NCBI GenBank assembly: GCA_013003715.1
Contig: JABDIN010000024.1
Span: forward strand, 1 to 64,000
Reading direction: 5' to 3'
From: Desulfobacteraceae bacterium
Lineage (GTDB): Bacteria; Desulfobacterota; Desulfobacteria; Desulfobacterales; Desulfosarcinaceae
Length of the DNA stretch: 64,000 nt
Shown here: in pieces, positions 53,414 through 64,000 of the stretch
Layout of the letters: each line of letters begins with the position of its first letter
Position numbering within the stretch: position 1 is the stretch's first letter
Notes under the pieces: model-generated
Told to the model about the DNA's origin: nothing
Seen by the model: the letters and a program-made list of their open reading frames with translations, nothing else
The model's database searches: none
Program-made: the position numbers and the translations under genes

Positions 53414-54640
<1,227 letters not shown>

Positions 54641-54847
54641 TTGAAGGCTATCGAAGTAAAAGTTTTGGATAACGATTTAGAAAAGGCCATGAGAATTTTA
54701 AAGAAAAAAATTCAGAATGATGGACTTTTCAAACGTCTGAAGCTGAAGAAGAGCTACGAAAAACCAAGCGAATACAGACGTAGAAAGCAGCGCGAAGCCT
54801 TAAGACGGCAAAGAATTGCTGCCGCCAAAAGCCGCCGTTACCGATAA
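54641..54847 (+). CDS. rpsU: 30S ribosomal protein S21
   Basis: A 68-residue basic ribosomal protein. EVKVLDNDLEKAMRILKKKI at the start and YEKPSEYRRRKQREALRR in the middle are typical. The start codon is TTG at 54641; no upstream ATG exists in frame and GGGGG lies ten bases before it. S21 helps initiation at leaders with strong Shine-Dalgarno sites. A strong terminator follows at once. Confidence 0.95.
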   Translation: MKAIEVKVLDNDLEKAMRILKKKIQNDGLFKRLKLKKSYEKPSEYRRRKQREALRRQRIAAAKSRRYR

Positions 54848-54870
54848 TCGACACCATGTCAACAATTAGC

Positions 54871-54907
54871 AAAACCCGGTATAATCGCATATTATACCGG
54901 GTTTTTT
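54871..54907 (+). terminator. Intrinsic terminator after rpsU
   Basis: AACCCGGTATAAT (54873-54885) pairs perfectly with ATTATACCGGGTT (54891-54903), followed by more T residues. The A-run on the left makes it usable in both directions. Confidence 0.93.
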
Positions 54908-55079
54908 AATCACAAACGGACAGATGGCAACTGATGGCTGCCCAGCGCACCGGAAATACGCCTGACCAAACCCTGCGTCCCTGTCCCTCTTTCGAAATAA
55001 TGAATGAAGGCCGCGGCAAAAGCGTCCGAAACCCGCTGAACGGAGTTCAATGTTGGAAACTGAGACTGATGGGTGACTC

Positions 55080-56369
55080 ATGTCCACTTCTAGTTACAGC
55101 AACTGCCTAAAATCACTTTTTAGTTTACGAAGATTTGGCATCAAGTTAGAACTCGATACCATAAGACACATATTGACGGCGTTGGGAAATCCGCAATGTT
55201 CGTACAGATGCATTCACATCGCCGGAACCAATGGTAAAGGCTCTGTGGCCGCCACCCTTGCTACGATTATTCGGGCAGCGGGCTACCGGGTCGGCCTGTA
55301 TACGTCCCCCCACCTGATCAGTTTCAACGAACGGATATGCATAAACAACAGACATATCGATAATGAAGACGTCGTTGCGACGTTTGAAGCCGTAAAATCA
55401 GTACACCATGGGGATCGGGAACCCACGTATTTTGAATTTGCCACCGCCATGGCCCTGTATCAATTCGCCAAGGAACAGGTGGATTGGGCGATAATAGAAA
55501 CCGGTATGGGTGGACGGTATGATGCCACTAATGTCATCACACCGATCCTGTCCGTCATCACCAATATCTCCATTGAACATAAGTCCTATCTCGGGAATAC
55601 GATCAATGAGATATCGATGGAAAAAGGCGGAATCATAAAAGATGATACACCCGTCATCACCGGGGTTCATCAAAAATCAGCAATCGATACCATCGGTGCG
55701 ATTGCTGCGGAAAAAAATGCGCCGATATACCGGCTGGGGAAGGATTTTAAAGTCCGTAAAACAAAGGATGGGGCATTCAACTACAGCGGCATGTTCAATA
55801 AGTGGTCTCGCTTGCGGTCGTCCTTGATCGGTACACATCAGATTGAAAATGCCGCCCTGGCCATGGCCGCTTGTGAAATATTGAACAGGTATCATATCTT
55901 ACTTCCTCTGGAGACCATCAAATCCGGACTTCAGACCACACACTGGCCGGGACGGTTGGAGATTGTCTCTTCAAACCCGCTGGTAATACTGGACGGTGCA
56001 CATAACCTTATGGCGGCAAGGAATCTTGGACGCTATTTGTTTGAAAAACTCAGCAGTAAAAGAAAAACATTAATCGTCGGTATTTTAGATGACAAACCCT
56101 ACACAACCATGATCAAGGATTTGGCGGCTCCCTGTGATCGCGTCATCGTCACACAACCCAAGATTGATCGTGCCCTACCTGCGGAGATACTGCTTGATAC
56201 CGTCAAACCATTGGTATCCGACGTGACAATCATCAGGGATGTGGGTGAGGCTGTTCTGGATACGATTCAATCCGCATCTCCAACGGATGCCATCTGTGTA
56301 GCCGGCTCGCTCTATGTTGTCGGTGAGGCGAAAGCAGCCCTCCAGAACCGCTTGGATATTGCACACTGA
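55080..56369 (+). CDS. folC: Bifunctional folylpolyglutamate/dihydrofolate synthase
   Basis: A 429-residue Mur-ligase-family enzyme that adds glutamate to folates. The P-loop is HIAGTNGKGSVAATLA, with YTSPHL and the glycine-rich ETGMGGRYDATNVI following, and LDGAHN in the C-terminal domain. Both synthase activities are usual in bacteria. The start ATG at 55080 is preceded by a stop in frame (TGACTC), so it cannot extend further. The Shine-Dalgarno site is poor. It stands alone, with tRNA-Arg downstream. Confidence 0.93.
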   Translation: MSTSSYSNCLKSLFSLRRFGIKLELDTIRHILTALGNPQCSYRCIHIAGTNGKGSVAATLATIIRAAGYRVGLYTSPHLISFNERICINNRHIDNEDVVATFEAVKSVHHGDREPTYFEFATAMALYQFAKEQVDWAIIETGMGGRYDATNVITPILSVITNISIEHKSYLGNTINEISMEKGGIIKDDTPVITGVHQKSAIDTIGAIAAEKNAPIYRLGKDFKVRKTKDGAFNYSGMFNKWSRLRSSLIGTHQIENAALAMAACEILNRYHILLPLETIKSGLQTTHWPGRLEIVSSNPLVILDGAHNLMAARNLGRYLFEKLSSKRKTLIVGILDDKPYTTMIKDLAAPCDRVIVTQPKIDRALPAEILLDTVKPLVSDVTIIRDVGEAVLDTIQSASPTDAICVAGSLYVVGEAKAALQNRLDIAH

Positions 56370-56620
56370 AACCCGATGCCAAAAACGGTATGCCATTTAT
56401 AGCTAAAGGACAGTGCTGAAAATGGAGGGAATTCAGAACGGCAGGATTCCGCCGTTTGGCAATATTCAGTTTGTCATGATCACGGTCTTCGCCTAAAAAG
56501 GAAATCATAAAAAATCCGGGCCGATTTCAAATTCGGTCGCCCTGGCTTGGAATGCATTACACCTTGACATGTTTTACCCGATACATTAGATACCCTTTTC
56601 ATCACTTCAAATATGGATAT

Positions 56621-56696
56621 GCGCCCGTAGCTCAGTGGATAGAGCGTCAGCCTCCGGAGCTGAAAGTCACAGGTTCGAATCCTGTCGGGCGTACCA
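56621..56696 (+). tRNA. tRNA-Arg(CCG)
   Basis: GCGCCCG pairs with CGGGCGT (one G-U) and CCA is encoded. The anticodon stem-loop TCAGC-CTCCGGA-GCTGA gives anticodon CCG. D loop and T loop (GGTTCGAATCC) are canonical. Confidence 0.97.
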
Positions 56697-56936
56697 CCTG
56701 ACCTCTTCTTTCTCAGCCGATTTATCATTGGCACAAGCCCCAGCCGGCAACCGATGCCCGATGCAGCTTATGAGGCGGGAATTATTGCCGATATAAAATT
56801 CAATATTTCAAACAAGACGCAAACACCAGCGCGAAATCGTTCGCCGATTTGCCTCACCGGTGCCGGGTCGTCCCATTCGATCCGCGGTGCTGCCGGTCTC
56901 TTGAATAATAACCAGATATGATTATAATTGACCATT

Positions 56937-58682
56937 ATGACAAAACACGACGAAAACATACCGGATCCAAAGAAACTGGAAAAAGAAATTGGTGACTTTC
57001 TAACGAAAAAATTCGGCGGAACCGTGAGGTTGGCATCTCCGATCATGATGCCCCAGGAAGATACCCAGGAGGTGGATGCTTCCCCGAAAGAGAAAAAAAG
57101 AATTGCCGACTTCAATTTGAAACCGGAAGAACTTGTCGCATATCTGGATCAGTATATCGTTAAACAGGATGATGCCAAGGCCATTCTGTCGACCAAGATT
57201 TGCACTCACTTCAATCGTATCCGGTACAATGAGACATCACCGGAAGACCGGGACGATATGGTGGGGTCCATTAAAAACAACGTTTTGATGATCGGTCCGA
57301 CCGGAGTAGGCAAGACATATATGGTTCGATTGATCGCCAAAAAACTGGGGGTACCGTTCGTTAAGGGCGATGCGACCAAATTCAGCGAAACCGGTTATGT
57401 CGGCGGAGATGTGGAAGATCTGGTTCGGGACCTTGTGAGGGAAGCCGATGGGGATATGAAGCGCGCCCAGTACGGCATTATATATATCGACGAAATCGAT
57501 AAGATTGCATCCAGCCACAATTTAATCGGGGCGGATGTTTCCCGAACCGGCGTACAGCGGGCACTACTGAAGCCATTGGAGGAAACCGAAGTTGACATGA
57601 AAGTGCCGCACGATCCGATTTCCATGATTCAGGAAATAGAGAACTTTCGGAAAACCGGCAAAAGGGACCGAAGCACCATAAATACAAAAAATATTCTGTT
57701 TATTGTCAGTGGCGCGTTTTCAGACATCATCGAGATCATCAAAAAAAGGATAACCACCCAGAAGATCGGTTTTGGTGCGCAGATCAGTTTGCCGGGAGCC
57801 GAGAACGCTATTTTGAAGCACATTAAATCGGAGGATCTCATTTCATATGGTTTTGAATCGGAATTTGTGGGTCGCCTGCCGGTTCGAGCCGTATTTGAAC
57901 CCCTTGTTGAAAAAGACCTGCTTGAGATCCTTAAAAACCCGAATAATCCGATTATTCTGGGGAAAAAGCGTGATTTTGCCGCCTACGGCATCAACATAAA
58001 ATTCAATGACGAGGCTTTGGCCATGCTGGCCAAAGCTGCATTCCAGGAAAACACCGGTGCCCGCGGTTTGGTCAGCGCGGTGGAAACGGCCATGCTTCCT
58101 TTCGAAAAGACACTGCCGTCAACTCCGGTCAAAACGTTTCCGGTGACCGCGAAAGTCATCCGGAAAAGACAAGCAGCCCTGGAAAAACTGGTAAGATCTC
58201 CGGATTCAGCGGATAACCACTTGACTTATGGGCAGATCACACAACACGAAAAAGACAGGATTGTCGAATATATCAACAGCAATAAACGGAAACTGGATGA
58301 AAAATACGGGTTTATACTGACCGGATTCAGATCGAATCTGATTGCCGACTACTATAGCGATCACATCACCGACATTGACCGGTCCATAAAAAAAATCAAG
58401 GGCTACTTTGAAGATACCAAAACAATAGAGCTTCATTTTTTGAAAAATTTTGGTATAAATCTGGTTCTTGAAGACGATGCCATCGATCATATCATCGAAC
58501 AATTTGCAAGATCTCATACAAGTGTAGATTATTACTATAAAAAACTGGCGGATGATTTTGAACATGGGCTGAGGCTGGTAAGGGAAAAAACCGGACAGAA
58601 CCGGTTCTTTATTTCCAAAACAGCAATCCTGAATCCGGAAAAATACATAGCAGAGATGCTTAGAAACCAAAGGGAAATTTAA
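56937..58682 (+). CDS. ClpX-like AAA+ unfoldase without the zinc domain, with a C-terminal extension
   Basis: A 581-residue AAA+ protein. Walker A GPTGVGKT is at 120-127, the ClpX-type pore loop GYVG at 153-156, Walker B IIYIDEID ends near 188, the IGFG loop is at 277-280, and VGRLPV and GARGLVSAVE (sensor 2) follow. E. coli ClpX starts with a four-Cys zinc domain; here the 60-residue N-terminus has no such cysteines. About 180 residues follow the AAA core, more than in ClpX. The IGF tripeptide in ClpX docks on ClpP, so partnership with a ClpP-type protease is possible. The stop (TAA) shares its last base with the ATG of ahbC. No good ribosome site is present; a TTG at 56928 is another start. 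Confidence 0.85.
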   Translation: MTKHDENIPDPKKLEKEIGDFLTKKFGGTVRLASPIMMPQEDTQEVDASPKEKKRIADFNLKPEELVAYLDQYIVKQDDAKAILSTKICTHFNRIRYNETSPEDRDDMVGSIKNNVLMIGPTGVGKTYMVRLIAKKLGVPFVKGDATKFSETGYVGGDVEDLVRDLVREADGDMKRAQYGIIYIDEIDKIASSHNLIGADVSRTGVQRALLKPLEETEVDMKVPHDPISMIQEIENFRKTGKRDRSTINTKNILFIVSGAFSDIIEIIKKRITTQKIGFGAQISLPGAENAILKHIKSEDLISYGFESEFVGRLPVRAVFEPLVEKDLLEILKNPNNPIILGKKRDFAAYGINIKFNDEALAMLAKAAFQENTGARGLVSAVETAMLPFEKTLPSTPVKTFPVTAKVIRKRQAALEKLVRSPDSADNHLTYGQITQHEKDRIVEYINSNKRKLDEKYGFILTGFRSNLIADYYSDHITDIDRSIKKIKGYFEDTKTIELHFLKNFGINLVLEDDAIDHIIEQFARSHTSVDYYYKKLADDFEHGLRLVREKTGQNRFFISKTAILNPEKYIAEMLRNQREI

Positions 58683-59869
58683 TGATCGGAATTTCAAAAT
58701 TGTACTGTGGAACCGTTGAACCCTCGGACGCCTTGCGATATGGCCGGATGTCCTCCAACCTTCCTTCCCACCTTCTCCAGTTTTCCAAGGATAAAAAACC
58801 AGTGGTGGTATGGAATATCACCCGCCGATGCAATCTAAAATGCGTTCACTGCTACGCACATGCCAAGGATGTCAGCTTCAGCAATGAACTCACCACGGAT
58901 GAAGGCAAAACACTATTGGACGACCTGGCATCTTTCGGTGTACCGGTGGTCCTATTTTCCGGCGGTGAGCCCTTGGTACGGAAAGACCTTCCGGAATTGG
59001 CCGAATACGCAGTGGGGAAAGGCATGCGTGCGGTAATTTCCACCAATGGCACCCTGATCACCGGTGAAATGGCCAAAACCCTGAAAAGCATCGGCCTGTC
59101 ATATGTGGGTATCAGTCTAGACGGCATGCAGAAAATCAATGACCGGTTTCGCGGTGTTTCCGGTGCATTCCGGAAAGCGCTTGAGGGAATCGATAATTGT
59201 CAGAAAGCCGGAATTAAAGTAGGGCTGCGATTTACGATGAACAAGGCCAATGTTCAGGAGATACCCGAGATATTCGACCTTCTCGAGGAACGTGACATTC
59301 CCCGTGTCTGCTTCTATCACCTGGTTTATGCCGGAAGAGGTTCAAAGCTGGTCGAAGAGGATCTGACACTTGCGGAAACACGTTCGGCTGTCGATCTTAT
59401 TATGGATCGCACCCGTGAGCTGCACCAAAAAGGCAAGCCCAAGGAGGTCCTGACCGTCGATAATCATGCGGACGGCCCATACTTATATTTACGCATGAAA
59501 GCGGAAGATCCCGATCGTGCTGAAGAATCCATGAAACTGCTTGAAATGAATGAGGGTAATAGTTCCGGAAGGGGTATCGGATGCGTGAGCTGGGATGGTG
59601 AAGTTTATGCGGACCAGTTCTGGCGACACCATAGTTTTGGAAATATCAGAAACAGACCATTTTCGAAAATCTGGACCGAGCCCGATGATGATCTCCTCAT
59701 AAAATTGAAGCAAAAGAAAAATTATGTTAAAGGAAGGTGCGCCTCTTGCCGTTGGCTGAATATCTGTGGCGGTAATTTCAGAGTCCGGGCGGAAGCTGTT
59801 TCCGGTGATGTTTGGGCCCCTGATCCGGCATGCTACTTGACCGAGGAAGAAATCGCACAGACCATTTGA
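58682..59869 (+). CDS. ahbC: 12,18-didecarboxysiroheme deacetylase AhbC
   Basis: A 395-residue radical SAM enzyme of the siroheme-dependent heme pathway. It removes two acetate side chains from 12,18-didecarboxysiroheme to give iron-coproporphyrin III. The radical SAM cluster motif is RRCNLKCVHCYA, and the C-terminal cysteines in CASCRWLNICGGN hold an auxiliary cluster. The opening MIGISKLYCGTVEPSDALRY matches the AhbC family. It overlaps the AAA+ gene by one base and is followed after 157 bases by hemB and then ahbD. Confidence 0.92.
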   Translation: MIGISKLYCGTVEPSDALRYGRMSSNLPSHLLQFSKDKKPVVVWNITRRCNLKCVHCYAHAKDVSFSNELTTDEGKTLLDDLASFGVPVVLFSGGEPLVRKDLPELAEYAVGKGMRAVISTNGTLITGEMAKTLKSIGLSYVGISLDGMQKINDRFRGVSGAFRKALEGIDNCQKAGIKVGLRFTMNKANVQEIPEIFDLLEERDIPRVCFYHLVYAGRGSKLVEEDLTLAETRSAVDLIMDRTRELHQKGKPKEVLTVDNHADGPYLYLRMKAEDPDRAEESMKLLEMNEGNSSGRGIGCVSWDGEVYADQFWRHHSFGNIRNRPFSKIWTEPDDDLLIKLKQKKNYVKGRCASCRWLNICGGNFRVRAEAVSGDVWAPDPACYLTEEEIAQTI

Positions 59870-60026
59870 TGCAATGCAAAGTGTTTGTATTTTTACAATC
59901 GGCGCCGGCCCCCATCCCTGTATATTTAAACCGTTTTTCGTTTACAAGAATCCTGGTAGCGCACTCACCAGCCCGTCGCTCTAATGCTCACATCATTCAC
60001 CGGTGTATTTATTAAAGGAGAACAAT

Positions 60027-60998
60027 ATGCTTTTTCCAGACTACAGGCCCCGCCGTTTGCGACAGAGCAAAGCTTTCCGTCGAATGGTCCGGGAAACCGA
60101 ACTTTCCGTAAACGACCTGATCCTGCCGCTGTTCGCCGTTGAGGGTAAAGATGTAAAGAACCCCATATCCTCCATGCCCGGGCATTTCCAGCTATCGGTT
60201 GATCATATTGTTCAAACGGCGGAAGAAGCACATGGATTGGGAATTCCGGCCGTGATCTTATTCGGTATTCCATCCGATAAAGACAGTCTGGCAACACAAG
60301 CCTACAAGAAAGACGGCATTGTTCAAAAAACAATTTCCGCCATAAAAGAACGAATTCCGGATCTCGCTGTAATTACGGATGTTTGCTTGTGCGGTTATAC
60401 GGACCATGGCCATTGCGGCATTGTGAATGGCCAAATCATCGACAATGATGCAACCTTGGATTTATTGGCAAAAATAGCGGTATCGCATGCAAAAGCCGGT
60501 GCCGATATGGTGGCGCCTTCAGATATGATGGATGGACGCGTTGCGGAAATCAGGGATGGGCTGGACGAGAATAATTTCAGCCATATTCCCATCATGGCGT
60601 ACTCCGCAAAATACTGTTCAGCCTATTATGGGCCATTTCGCCAAGCAGCGGAATCGGCACCTCAATTTGGTGACCGGCGCACCTATCAAATGGATCCGGC
60701 CAATGCCGTTGAAGCGATACGGGAAGCCACACTGGATATCGAGGAAGGCGCGGATATCATCATGGTAAAGCCGGCGCTGTCCTACCTCGATATAATTTAC
60801 CGTTTACGCGAAGAAACGGATCTTCCCATAGCGGCCTACAATGTCAGTGGCGAATTCTCAATGATTAAAGCTGCCGAACAACTGGGCTGGATGGATGGAA
60901 CGGCTGTTATGCTGGAAACCCTTACCTCAATCAAACGGGCAGGGGCGGATATGATATTGACCTACTTCGCAATTGATGCGGCCAAAGCAATCGGTTGA
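60027..60998 (+). CDS. hemB: Porphobilinogen synthase (delta-aminolevulinate dehydratase)
   Basis: A 323-residue enzyme joining two aminolevulinates into porphobilinogen. The zinc-site cysteines are in [14 protein letters not shown], the Schiff-base lysines in [13 protein letters not shown] and [12 protein letters not shown]. So this is the zinc-dependent type. An in-frame ATG at 60003 exists, but AAAGGAG precedes the ATG at 60027. It sits between ahbC and ahbD, the arrangement known in sulfate reducers. Confidence 0.96.
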
Positions 60999-61102
60999 GC
61001 TTAACCCAACGGCATAAGCGAATGATTTGTTAAAACTCGTCTGTGGTGATGCCCGGGCCGATGAATAAAATTCTTCCACCAACAATACAAAAGTGAATCA
61101 AT

Positions 61103-62215
61103 ATGACAAAAGTTCCTCATTCAACAGAAGCGCACCCGCACGCAAAACAGGAGAAGCCAGGTGAAACCTTGAGGCTTGTCGCATGGGAAACGACCCGAAA
61201 TTGCAATCTTGCCTGCAAACATTGCCGGGCGTCGGCCACATTCGGCCCCCACTCAGGCGAACTGGACACGCCGGCCGCTTTTCAGCTACTGGATCAGATC
61301 GCTTATGTCGCCAAACCCATCGTTATTCTTACCGGAGGAGAACCCCTTTTGCGGCCGGATATTTTTGACATTGCCAGATATGGTACCGAATTAGGGCTAA
61401 GAATGGTGATGGCCCCGAACGGTACATTGATAACCGAAATTCTTGCCCACAAAATGGCGGATTCGGGTATCAGACGAATAAGTATAAGCCTCGACGGTGC
61501 AGACCGGGAAAGCCACGACAACTTCAGAGGTGTCGATGGTGCATATGACGGTGCACTCACCGGGATAAAGCACGCAAAAAGCGCCGGCATCGAATTTCAG
61601 ATCAACACCACCATCACCAAGTCCAACCTCGACCAGATTCCCAAGCTGCTTGAACTGGCCGAAAACCTTGGTGCCGTTGCACATCACATTTTTCTTTTGG
61701 TACCCACGGGGCGCGGTAAATATATCGTTGATCAGGAGATAAATGCAAAAGAGTATGAGGAAACACTGAATTGGTTTTATGACCAGAGGAAGAAAACATC
61801 CCTGCAACTTAAAGCCACTTGTGCACCGCACTATTATCGCATATTACGCCAACGGGCTAAGGCGGATGGCGAAAAAGTAACCTTTCAATCCCACGGTCTG
61901 GATGCCGTATCACGCGGTTGCCTTGCGGGTACCGGTTTTTGCTTTATCTCACATAAAGGCGTTGTCCAACCCTGTGGATTTCTTCAACTGGAATGCGGTG
62001 ACGTCACAAAAACACCTTTCCCTGAAATATGGAAAGCCTCCGATATCTTCAAATCACTCAGAAATGTAAATGAACTCAAAGAAAAATGCGGCATTTGTGA
62101 ATATCGAAAAGTATGCGGCGGATGCCGGGCAAGAGCTTTTGAAGCGACCGGAGATTACTTGCGGGAAGAACCGCTGTGCTTGTATAAACCATCGGCGGCC
62201 GGAGACATCGTATAA
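61103..62215 (+). CDS. ahbD: Heme b synthase AhbD (iron-coproporphyrin III decarboxylase)
   Basis: A 370-residue radical SAM enzyme that oxidatively decarboxylates two propionates of iron-coproporphyrin III to vinyls, giving heme b. The cluster motif is TRNCNLACKHCRAS. The C-terminal cysteines in CGICEYRKVCGGCRARAFE provide the auxiliary cluster typical of this pathway. LRLVAWETTRNCNL is the family start region. It ends the heme cluster; a strong terminator follows. ahbA and ahbB are not in the window. Confidence 0.92.
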   Translation: MTKVPHSTEAHPHAKQEKPGETLRLVAWETTRNCNLACKHCRASATFGPHSGELDTPAAFQLLDQIAYVAKPIVILTGGEPLLRPDIFDIARYGTELGLRMVMAPNGTLITEILAHKMADSGIRRISISLDGADRESHDNFRGVDGAYDGALTGIKHAKSAGIEFQINTTITKSNLDQIPKLLELAENLGAVAHHIFLLVPTGRGKYIVDQEINAKEYEETLNWFYDQRKKTSLQLKATCAPHYYRILRQRAKADGEKVTFQSHGLDAVSRGCLAGTGFCFISHKGVVQPCGFLQLECGDVTKTPFPEIWKASDIFKSLRNVNELKEKCGICEYRKVCGGCRARAFEATGDYLREEPLCLYKPSAAGDIV

Positions 62216-62228
62216 GGTTCGGAACAAC

Positions 62229-62264
62229 AAGGGGATAGGTTTGATGGACCTTATCCCCTTTTTG
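62229..62264 (+). terminator. Intrinsic terminator after ahbD
   Basis: AAGGGGATAGGT (62229-62240) pairs with ACC-TATCCCCTT (62248-62260, one bulged T), followed by a T-run. Confidence 0.85.
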
Positions 62265-62470
62265 AGATGGTATCCACAGGTGTTTGTACCCTTCCGTCGA
62301 TAATGAAACATCCCACCTCTAACTGTTTTCCTGCCAGTGCCCGATCTGATCTCAGCTCGAAGGGTTGCAGAATTTTCTTGTTTACCGCACATGTATATTG
62401 ATATAGTTGGGGTCTGCCCAAAATCATGATTAATTTGAAAATTCTTTAACCACCCGTTTCGGAGTTACCC

Positions 62471-63076
62471 ATGAAGATAAAATCCTTGATGATTTCCAAT
62501 CCCATCACCATCCCCAAAAACGCGTCCGTCGCCGAAGCATTGGAATTGATGAAAAATAATTCCATTCGACATCTTCCCGTGGTCAATAGCAATAAGTCGC
62601 TGCTGGGATTTGTGACGCTGGCTGATCTGAAACAAGGTCTTATCCCTTCCATGGTGGGTGATTTGCTGCTGAAGGATATCATGATCCAGAATCCGATCAC
62701 CGTCGGATCGGAAGACGACATCGAACTTGCCGCCCGCTTAATCTACCTGAAAAAAATCAGCGGCATGCCCGTTGTCGAACAGAACCAGGTAATCGGGATC
62801 ATTACAGAATCCGATATACTTAGAGCGTTCATCGATATGATGGGCATATTGTCGAGCAGTTCCAGAATTGACGCCGTCCTGGGGGATGATCCGGCGGCGC
62901 TGAACAAGGCGTTGCAAACAATCACCGATAGCGGTGGTCAAATAATCAATGTGGGGATGACCGCTCAGAATGCCGGTAAAAAAACCTACTTTTTCCGTTT
63001 GGCCGCATGCGACACCACCATCATCAGGAAGGCATTGGAAAACAAAGGAGTTGTCGTACTCTCGGCCATGGATTGA
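62471..63076 (+). CDS. CBS-domain pair protein with C-terminal ACT-like domain
   Basis: A 201-residue protein. Two CBS domains occupy about 1-58 (MISNPITIPKNASVAEAL, LLGFVTLADL) and 70-125 (IMIQNPITVGSEDDIELA, VIGIITESDIL). The final 65 residues have a pattern like an ACT fold (DSGGQIINVGMTAQNAG then TYFFRLAACDT). This architecture is like AcuB. CBS pairs bind adenosyl nucleotides, ACT domains bind amino acids; the ligand and target here are unknown. The stop overlaps a short downstream frame. Confidence 0.85.
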   Translation: MKIKSLMISNPITIPKNASVAEALELMKNNSIRHLPVVNSNKSLLGFVTLADLKQGLIPSMVGDLLLKDIMIQNPITVGSEDDIELAARLIYLKKISGMPVVEQNQVIGIITESDILRAFIDMMGILSSSSRIDAVLGDDPAALNKALQTITDSGGQIINVGMTAQNAGKKTYFFRLAACDTTIIRKALENKGVVVLSAMD

Positions 63077-63201
63077 TGTCGATTGACGCAATCTCCGGAT
63101 TGAAAGAGCACATCCCGGACAATCCTCAATTATCTTTTGCAGCTGTATTCTCATATAAACCGGGCAACCGCATATCAGGAGTTGGAATTACCGCTTTCTG
63201 A
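63076..63201 (+). CDS. Short ORF overlapping the CBS-ACT stop (TGATG)
   Basis: A 41-codon frame starts with the ATG sharing bases with the TGA of the CBS-ACT gene. The translation (for example DAISGLKEHIPDNPQLSFAA) is not obviously random and could be a fragment or a small coupled protein. No domain is recognised. Confidence 0.3.
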   Translation: MSIDAISGLKEHIPDNPQLSFAAVFSYKPGNRISGVGITAF

Positions 63202-63224
63202 CTGAGCTCGACGATGCCTTCGAT

Positions 63225-64000
63225 TCAATTAGCATCAGTATCTTCATCAGTAACAAGAATAGTATGCGAATTACCAACTGAATTCAACATGAGGGTAATT
63301 GGCCTGTCCTCTTCGCTTTTGCCGGTAAACCGGATAGGACCGGGCCGGCGGTAGTTGTCTTTTCCGGGATCTGCGGCTAACCATTTCTCACGAAACGCCT
63401 TAGCAACTTGAAATGCAGGCGACTTCACGTCCACAATGCTCTTCTCAAGAACAAGCGATAATTTACCCAGCCGTTCTTCCAGATGCATCAATGCGGCAAT
63501 GGGGATACCGATGGGTTCCCATTTTTCAAAATCATATTCAAGATTTCGAATGGCGGCCATCTGTCCGGTGGAACCGTTGGCGATAAGACTGAATACCGTT
63601 TGGCCCAGGTTATAAGTATAAATGCAGTCGAAACGGGTCGGATCCGCACCCCGGCCGTCATACCCATAAAAATGGGACTGCGTCTTAAAATTTGGCACCG
63701 ATGCAGTGTAAATCTTGCCGATACAAGATGGCACATCCTGATCCGCTGTGATAGCGCCCGCTTTCTCCAATGCCTGCCGAAGTGTTTTCAGGGAGATGAT
63801 TGATGCCTTAATCAAAAGATATTCGGACTCGCCATAGTTTCGAAAGAGAATAGGACCGAAATAGTCCGGGTCCAGACGGTCTTCTTTCAAAACTTTTTGA
63901 TAATAGGCGTTCTTAATGCCGACCTTATAGCTCCCTTTCTCTTTTAAAATATTCAGATAATCCCTTACCAGATTCAACAGGACTTTTTCCGTGGGCACCT
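63225..64000 (-). CDS. PPi-dependent 6-phosphofructokinase, C-terminal part
   Basis: The final 257 or so residues of a longer gene cut by the window end. The stretch FDCIYTYNLGQTVFSLIANG followed by STGQMAAI is typical of the C-terminal domain of the long pyrophosphate--fructose-6-phosphate 1-phosphotransferases (PFP), and PIGIPIAALMHLEERLGK fits the same region. The catalytic N-terminal half lies outside. PPi-type enzymes reversibly interconvert F6P and F1,6BP in glycolysis and gluconeogenesis and are common in Desulfobacterota. Confidence 0.8.
   Translation of the reverse strand, partial: VPTEKVLLNLVRDYLNILKEKGSYKVGIKNAYYQKVLKEDRLDPDYFGPILFRNYGESEYLLIKASIISLKTLRQALEKAGAITADQDVPSCIGKIYTASVPNFKTQSHFYGYDGRGADPTRFDCIYTYNLGQTVFSLIANGSTGQMAAIRNLEYDFEKWEPIGIPIAALMHLEERLGKLSLVLEKSIVDVKSPAFQVAKAFREKWLAADPGKDNYRRPGPIRFTGKSEEDRPITLMLNSVGNSHTILVTDEDTDAN

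Follow-up and report, generated by a model that had tools for sequence, protein, structure and literature searches.

The stretch of DNA that we analysed (here, the window) comprises 64,000 nucleotides, positions 1 to 64,000 of the forward strand of contig JABDIN010000024.1 (assembly GCA_013003715.1) from a Desulfobacteraceae bacterium. It carries a gene for a predicted ClpX-like AAA+ unfoldase, hereafter XL, which is followed by three genes of tetrapyrrole synthesis in the order XL, ahbC, hemB, ahbD:

56937..58682, + strand: XL, predicted ClpX-like AAA+ unfoldase of 581 amino acids, without a zinc-binding domain (open reading frame and family models)
58682..59869, + strand: ahbC, 12,18-didecarboxysiroheme deacetylase (TIGR04546, 763.5 bits; cut-off 650)
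60027..60998, + strand: hemB, porphobilinogen synthase (PF00490; ATG start picked by eye)
61103..62215, + strand: ahbD, heme b synthase (TIGR04545, 554.1 bits; cut-off 500)

XL starts with the ATG at 56937 and ends with the TAA at 58680-58682, whose last base is also the first base of the ahbC start codon (ATG 58682; TAATG). An earlier sequence-only reading of this DNA had described a 581-residue ClpX-like ATPase overlapping ahbC by one base and had proposed that it remodels, protects or, with ClpP, degrades AhbC. Its coordinates, the length of the protein and the overlap are all as it had claimed.

We aligned 164 XL sequences, 140 from Desulfobacterota and 24 from other phyla, leaving sequences of less than 440 amino acids (L208, L245 and L142) out of the alignment and the trees. 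The sequence elements discussed below lie at the following positions in the window:

57294..57317, + strand: Walker A (GPTGVGKT), residues 120-127; lysine 126 present in 164/164 sequences
57393..57404, + strand: GYVG pore-1 loop, residues 153-156; invariant in 164/164
57765..57773, + strand: IGF motif, residues 277-279, predicted ClpP-docking loop (role according to PMC7112952)
57948..58211, + strand: AAA+ small domain, residues 338-425, with sensor 2 at residues 374-377 (family model and structure model)
58206..58415, + strand: helical insert, approximately residues 424-493 (profile comparison and model)
58416..58670, + strand: second AAA+ small domain, residues 494-578 (hhalign and model)

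XL shares with canonical ClpX the large and small AAA+ domains, the Walker motifs, the GYVG loop, the arginine finger, sensor 2 and the IGF loop. Across the 164 sequences no variation is seen in the two acidic residues of Walker B, in the arginine finger or in sensor 2, and [ILMV]GF is found in 140/140 desulfobacterotal and 24/24 other XLs while most adjacent positions of the loop vary. XL differs from ClpX as follows: it scores below the cut-offs for ClpX, lacks the Cys4 domain, has another segment in place of the RKH motif and carries a second small domain. The closest curated models are those of ClpX (NCBIfam NF003745 and TIGR00382), with scores of 322.7 bits (equivalog cut-off 359) and 294.1 bits (370.75); two XLs from other phyla likewise fell under the ClpX cut-offs. 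HslU has a related AAA+ core, but XL lies far below the HslU cut-off (179.6 against 362.45 bits). The Cys4 zinc domain is not present at the N-terminus of XL: the first 60 residues contain no cysteine in 119/140 desulfobacterotal and 22/24 other sequences, and four cysteines in a single one. The alignment thus agrees with the sequence-only reading, which had listed Walker A, Walker B, GYVG, an IGFG loop and sensor 2 and noted the missing zinc domain. In the structure model an N-terminal helix (residues 11-26) has several positions that are invariant among 13 close relatives.

In Escherichia coli ClpX the RKH motif is needed to recognize the ssrA tag, and the IGF loop docks onto ClpP (PMC7112952; statements from papers cited by PMC number refer to the portions of their text that were available). 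The RKH motif is missing from XL. The columns that hold it in the ClpX of the same genome are occupied mostly by R/Q, K/R and T, are preceded by an 11-column insertion and, in the clade of the window XL, form part of a longer conserved segment (VPHDPISMIQEIE...RKTGKR). Since RKH is replaced by another conserved segment, the substrate code of XL should differ from that of ClpX. The genome of the window has a separate clpX beside clpP, distinct from XL, and all six named genomes that were examined contain an XL together with a second match of ClpX strength. By sequence, then, XL belongs to a separate family of paralogues that exists alongside canonical ClpX.

The sequence-only reading had also pointed to approximately 180 extra residues at the C-terminus. 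These are real, and profile comparison and modelling now resolve them into a second AAA+ small domain and an insert that resembles half of it. In a one-against-one comparison with hhalign, residues 494-578 matched residues 338-425 with a probability of 98.5 (E 3.5e-15), whereas controls with six other XL segments and one reversed profile gave 0.2-2.8; the match survived when the alignment was restricted to Desulfobacterota (98.4) or to other phyla (98.2). The order of strands and helices is the same in both small domains of the predicted model, which was built from 92 sequences (mean predicted local distance difference test score, pLDDT, 85.9; ten-residue means of 87-98 from residue 291 to 580). 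The core of the model superimposed on ClpX (3hws) with Z 30.4 and a root-mean-square deviation of 3.1 over 320 residues; Z for HslU was about 24-25, somewhat below ClpX. An earlier model with a poor core (mean pLDDT 68.8; template modelling score, TM, 0.24-0.30 of the query to ClpX) was set aside. The helical insert is similar to the first half of the C-terminal small domain (92.4 and 84.6 in two comparisons). It measures at least 70 residues in 138/140 desulfobacterotal sequences (50-69 in the other two) and in 1/24 sequences from other phyla, with fewer than 20 in the remaining 23. A ClpX core combined with a second small domain went unmentioned in the literature retrieved by our ClpX-related searches, none of which was aimed at that architecture. 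In a library of viral structures the best match was an unnamed protein of 401 amino acids (TM 0.54 of the query, 34% identity). An anti-phage role was considered and dropped, the matches to the IetA and RtcR models being weak (24.9 bits at best).

We then come to the genomic context, for which neighbours were identified by simple open reading frame calling and tblastn, with one representative per family. Among sixty genomes (the window's own and 59 relatives), 52 encode XL at 600 bits or more. Within the order, ahbC lies directly 3' of XL in 29/30 loci, including the window, and hemB does so in one. For the phylum we used a sample of 297 genomes of Desulfobacterota with thresholds of E<=1e-90 for XL and E<=1e-100 for ahbC; matches of ClpX strength had values of about 1e-54 to 1e-71 in the search of sixty genomes, so that the XL threshold separates the paralogues. 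XL was present in 142/297 genomes, and the gene after it is ahbC in 69 of these, a J-domain protein gene in 36, hemB in 17 and something else in 17, with three loci ending at a contig end. A tetrapyrrole gene (ahbC or hemB) thus lies downstream of XL in 86/142 genomes. In 19 of those a gene for a receiver-domain protein intervenes, preceding ahbC in ten and hemB in nine (19/141 fetched loci).

The linkage is real, conserved and broader than the sequence-only reading could tell from the window; the tie that it drew between a ClpX relative and heme genes is supported, and the adjacency, spanning the order and the phylum sample, is no peculiarity of one strain. Whether the ATPase occurs mostly away from ahb genes has one answer within the order, where it does not (29/30 adjacent), and another across the phylum, where the count is a draw (69/142 with ahbC; 86/142 when hemB is included). 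In 38/45 named loci of Desulfobacterota XL is followed by one of ahbC, hemB and the receiver gene, while the commonest family immediately upstream is found in 6/48; downstream synteny greatly exceeds the upstream background. In the 68 fetched loci that link XL to ahbC, the order ahbC-hemB-ahbD was found in 31, ahbC with hemB in six and ahbC without either, in the available stretch, in 31. The exact one-base overlap is not general: among 58 ahbC-linked loci of the phylum sample (those without an intervening receiver gene, the window not counted), XL and ahbC overlap in 12 (11 as ATGA, one by a single base), are separated by 0-20 bp in 14 and by larger gaps of up to 1074 bp in 32. An overlap was also seen in 8/27 loci measured within the order, some of whose genomes are common to the 58-locus set.

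The intervening receiver protein stands alone and has about 123 amino acids (e.g. L119:11644-12015); PF00072 was found in the single example scanned. Among cultured species, Thermosulfurimonas dismutans has such a receiver gene separating XL from ahbC, while Desulfosarcina alkanivorans carries XL, ahbC, hemB and ahbD consecutively. It is a possible signalling input to XL and the heme operon.

XLs outside the heme link often precede a gene for a CbpA-type J-protein. All 36 members of the J-protein cluster have the HPD motif and one has the zinc-finger motif; the single example scanned contains DnaJ and DnaJ_C domains. A gene for a Lon-like protease (one example scanned) lies two genes down from XL in families f43, f104 and f122, and several of the neighbourhoods continue with an RsmE-like gene, so named by eye. 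Positions noted for these downstream genes are L098:11791-12714 and L154:8824-11385.

Co-occurrence of XL and AhbC is less close than their adjacency. At the thresholds used, ahbC was detected in 163/297 genomes before one contig-end correction (G136 was removed from 46 XL-only genomes, as its ahbC sits at a contig end); with that correction, 97 genomes have both genes, 45 XL alone, 67 ahbC alone and 88 neither. None of the 45 XL-only genomes encodes an AhbC above the TIGR04546 cut-off, although one of them (G151) has a contig-edge AhbC-like fragment, probably ahbC. Of the 17 genomes with an XL-hemB link, 16 have no ahbC that reaches the family cut-off; the listed completeness of these 16 is 97-100%. 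Among the 45 XL genomes without ahbC over the cut-off, AhbD exceeds the TIGR04545 cut-off in 18 (e.g. G066, G069, G104 and G139), an AhbD-like protein scores 415-499 bits in 17 more and 313 bits in one, and nine have no AhbD match at E<=1e-60. Where AhbD occurs without the AhbC step, the final heme synthase is present and its substrate route is unclear.

These counts bear on the proposal that XL is a dedicated activator or protector of AhbC, acting on its iron-sulfur clusters or a siroheme intermediate by analogy with mitochondrial ClpX and 5-aminolevulinic acid (ALA) synthase. Such a function is favoured by the direct adjacency of XL to ahbC and by their overlapping stop and start codons, seen in the window and in some relatives, as well as by the partial unfolding of ALA synthase by mitochondrial ClpX (PMC7077987). 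We nonetheless consider it unlikely, given the XL-hemB pairs in 16 genomes without ahbC, the 45 XL genomes without ahbC over the cut-off and the 67 ahbC genomes without XL. The retained ClpP motif, moreover, points to degradation rather than to remodelling alone. Also against it, recombinant AhbC of Methanosarcina barkeri made Fe-coproporphyrin III in E. coli (PMC3942049), which we take to be a host without XL. The AhbC-specific reading is thus weakened, and AhbC as the only client of XL was rejected as our principal interpretation because of the same 16 XL-hemB genomes.

The trees bear on how the heme link arose. In a FastTree phylogeny of the 164 sequences, the heme-linked XLs fall into one clade of 96 members with a local support of 99; its downstream neighbours are ahbC (68), hemB (17) and other genes (10), with one contig end, and all 36 J-protein-linked sequences lie outside it. 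A mixture-model tree calculated with IQ-TREE for 64 sequences, a set that omits nine long-branch sequences and those at least 66% identical to one already chosen, contains the same clade, here with 40 members, 39 of them heme-linked (Shimodaira-Hasegawa-like approximate likelihood ratio test, 99). Pairing with ahbC or hemB is retained in 85 of the 95 resolvable members of the heme clade (35 family codes by our count). With the root placed among the other phyla, the trees suggest one switch within Desulfobacterota, from the J-protein to the heme neighbour; we infer both this root and the direction.

A scan of genomes named by record title, from which the best 80 of 468 relatives were kept as a sample of the spread over phyla, extends the family beyond Desulfobacterota. 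The 80 include sequences from KSB1, Calditrichota, Zixibacteria, Latescibacteria, Poribacteria, Verrucomicrobiota and others, and none from Myxococcota. In the phylum of one Verrucomicrobia record, 19/79 genomes encode an XL relative at E<=1e-85. Three Poribacteria loci have a weak radical S-adenosylmethionine (SAM) protein match, obtained with AhbD as the query, about 7 kb from XL. In the Poribacteria loci L145, L149 and L153, XL is part of a conserved non-heme neighbourhood (clusters c49 and c84, XL, clusters c85-c88).

A single origin of the linkage leaves room for the view that it has no functional content, a general stress unfoldase having moved once upstream of heme genes and remained there through operon inertia and shared basal expression. 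A linkage acquired once could simply have been inherited, and many genomes have XL or ahbC without the other; operon inertia is therefore a serious rival, and we regard it as quite possible, if on balance improbable. It accommodates the single clade of heme-linked XLs, the J-protein neighbour in 36 genomes and another gene in 17, the absence of ahbC and hemB from the available stretch of all 44 loci from other phyla, and the many genomes in which XL and ahbC are found without each other. It sits less easily with the persistence of the ahbC or hemB pairing in 85/95 heme-clade members alongside a scrambled upstream side, and with the retention of the hemB pairing in the 16 genomes where ahbC is absent.

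The predicted partner of XL is the next point to consider. ClpP was detected at E<=1e-35 in 136/142 XL genomes, as a single copy in 134 and as two copies in two. Because the docking motif is conserved and ClpP is usually single, a partnership with ClpP is the most economical reading, and degradation with ClpP, which the sequence-only reading had offered as one option, stands as a capacity predicted from the motif (164/164 sequences) and from the presence of ClpP. A dedicated second ClpP for XL was rejected, as only 2/142 XL genomes have two ClpPs; XL would therefore usually share the only ClpP of the cell. The window's own genome encodes a second full-length ClpP away from clpX (G000:C52:64834-65358), and a weaker match elsewhere in that genome (C114) resembles hslU as read by eye.

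XL might instead act without ClpP, as a chaperone or disaggregase alongside the J-protein and DnaK, its IGF motif being a relic or the docking site of another partner. The J-protein neighbour in 36 genomes, the second small domain beyond the ClpX core and the six XL genomes, some of them incomplete, in which ClpP was not detected at the above threshold would all fit such a chaperone. The GF pair, however, is invariant in 164/164 sequences across several phyla while its neighbours in the loop vary, which is unlike a relic, and we consider this alternative very improbable.

The reading that we prefer, and to which we give about an even chance, is that XL is a ClpP-using proteostasis unfoldase that was captured once into a tetrapyrrole operon and whose clients are probably enzymes of the pathway. 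XL would thread its substrates through the GYVG-lined pore into the ClpP of the cell. Its general role would be proteostasis, which would explain why XL lies upstream of a J-domain co-chaperone gene in part of the phylum; the J-protein neighbours and, by analogy, the heat sensitivity of the ClpX3 mutant of Myxococcus xanthus point the same way. XL was apparently placed once at the head of a tetrapyrrole operon and kept with ahbC, hemB and ahbD, with which it is probably co-expressed. There it would most likely turn over or remodel the iron-sulfur radical SAM proteins, HemB or both; alternatively, its clients would be proteins damaged while the heme pathway runs. The position of the gene suggests a dedicated unfoldase that controls or cleans up heme enzymes. 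Because the heme context is kept in 85/95 members of the clade, with hemB where ahbC is absent, it points to a role across the pathway rather than one specific to AhbC. A sharper version is tentative and, in our view, rather doubtful: XL, as a ClpX paralogue that lacks the zinc domain and has its small domain in duplicate, would sit on the ClpP ring and act selectively on HemB and the radical SAM heme enzymes, remodelling or degrading them, and would have evolved independently of mitochondria through one switch from J-protein to heme neighbour.

Several observations count against parts of our preferred reading. The J-protein-linked XLs form a grade below the heme clade and not one clade, and ten members of the heme clade have another neighbour. 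The linkage may go back to one ancient event that the clade has since inherited. Neither ahbC, hemB nor the J-protein gene was found in the available stretch of any of the 44 loci from other phyla; in 19 of these the flanks are limited to about 1.5 kb per side, and some others end early. The co-occurrence of XL with ahbC is loose, which means that AhbC does not require XL. Docking of XL onto ClpP is read from a motif, and the helical insert does not match the first small domain by profile (4.6).

That an unfoldase can control heme synthesis is already established for mitochondrial ClpX acting on ALA synthase. The likeness to XL is that a ClpX-type unfoldase is tied to heme synthesis (PMC7077987, PMC8361296); the difference is that partial unfolding of the first enzyme has been demonstrated in mitochondria, whereas for XL there is a genomic link, with ahbC, hemB and ahbD. 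ClpX3 of M. xanthus (MXAN_2743), which we compared by its published description, has, like XL, neither the N-terminal domain nor the RKH motif and is 43.54% identical to E. coli ClpX (PMC11423568). Its gene is isolated in the genome and can be deleted, and the mutant is inhibited at high temperature; unlike the genomic link of XL, a heme link of ClpX3 is unreported in the available portions of that paper. Our searches of open-licence articles in PubMed Central found no literature joining ClpX with AhbC, 'ClpX-like' with Desulfobacterota, or ClpX with the heme or hemB clusters of sulfate reducers.

Sulfate reducers depend heavily on cytochromes. If our interpretation is true, they gain an unexplored control point, and the mitochondrial system has a bacterial counterpart on other steps, in a siroheme-dependent pathway, which would make the coupling of unfoldases to tetrapyrrole synthesis a recurring solution. 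XL proteins are a variant form of ClpX-type ATPase, marked by the additional small domain, and their genes occur in two settings, beside a J-protein gene or beside heme genes. Comparing the two would test directly whether neighbouring genes reveal the clients of an unfoldase.

Few other features were found around XL. The CIRCE (controlling inverted repeat of chaperone expression) heat-shock operator, searched for in the window by its consensus with up to three mismatches, had no matches, and promoters and terminators near XL were about as frequent as expected by chance (6 against 5.3 and 7 against 4.8 expected, respectively). A search of 54000-64000 for structured RNAs returned nothing beyond a tRNA-Arg (CCG) at 56621-56696, upstream of XL; this is overlapped by a reverse-strand open reading frame (56480-56734) that is probably spurious.

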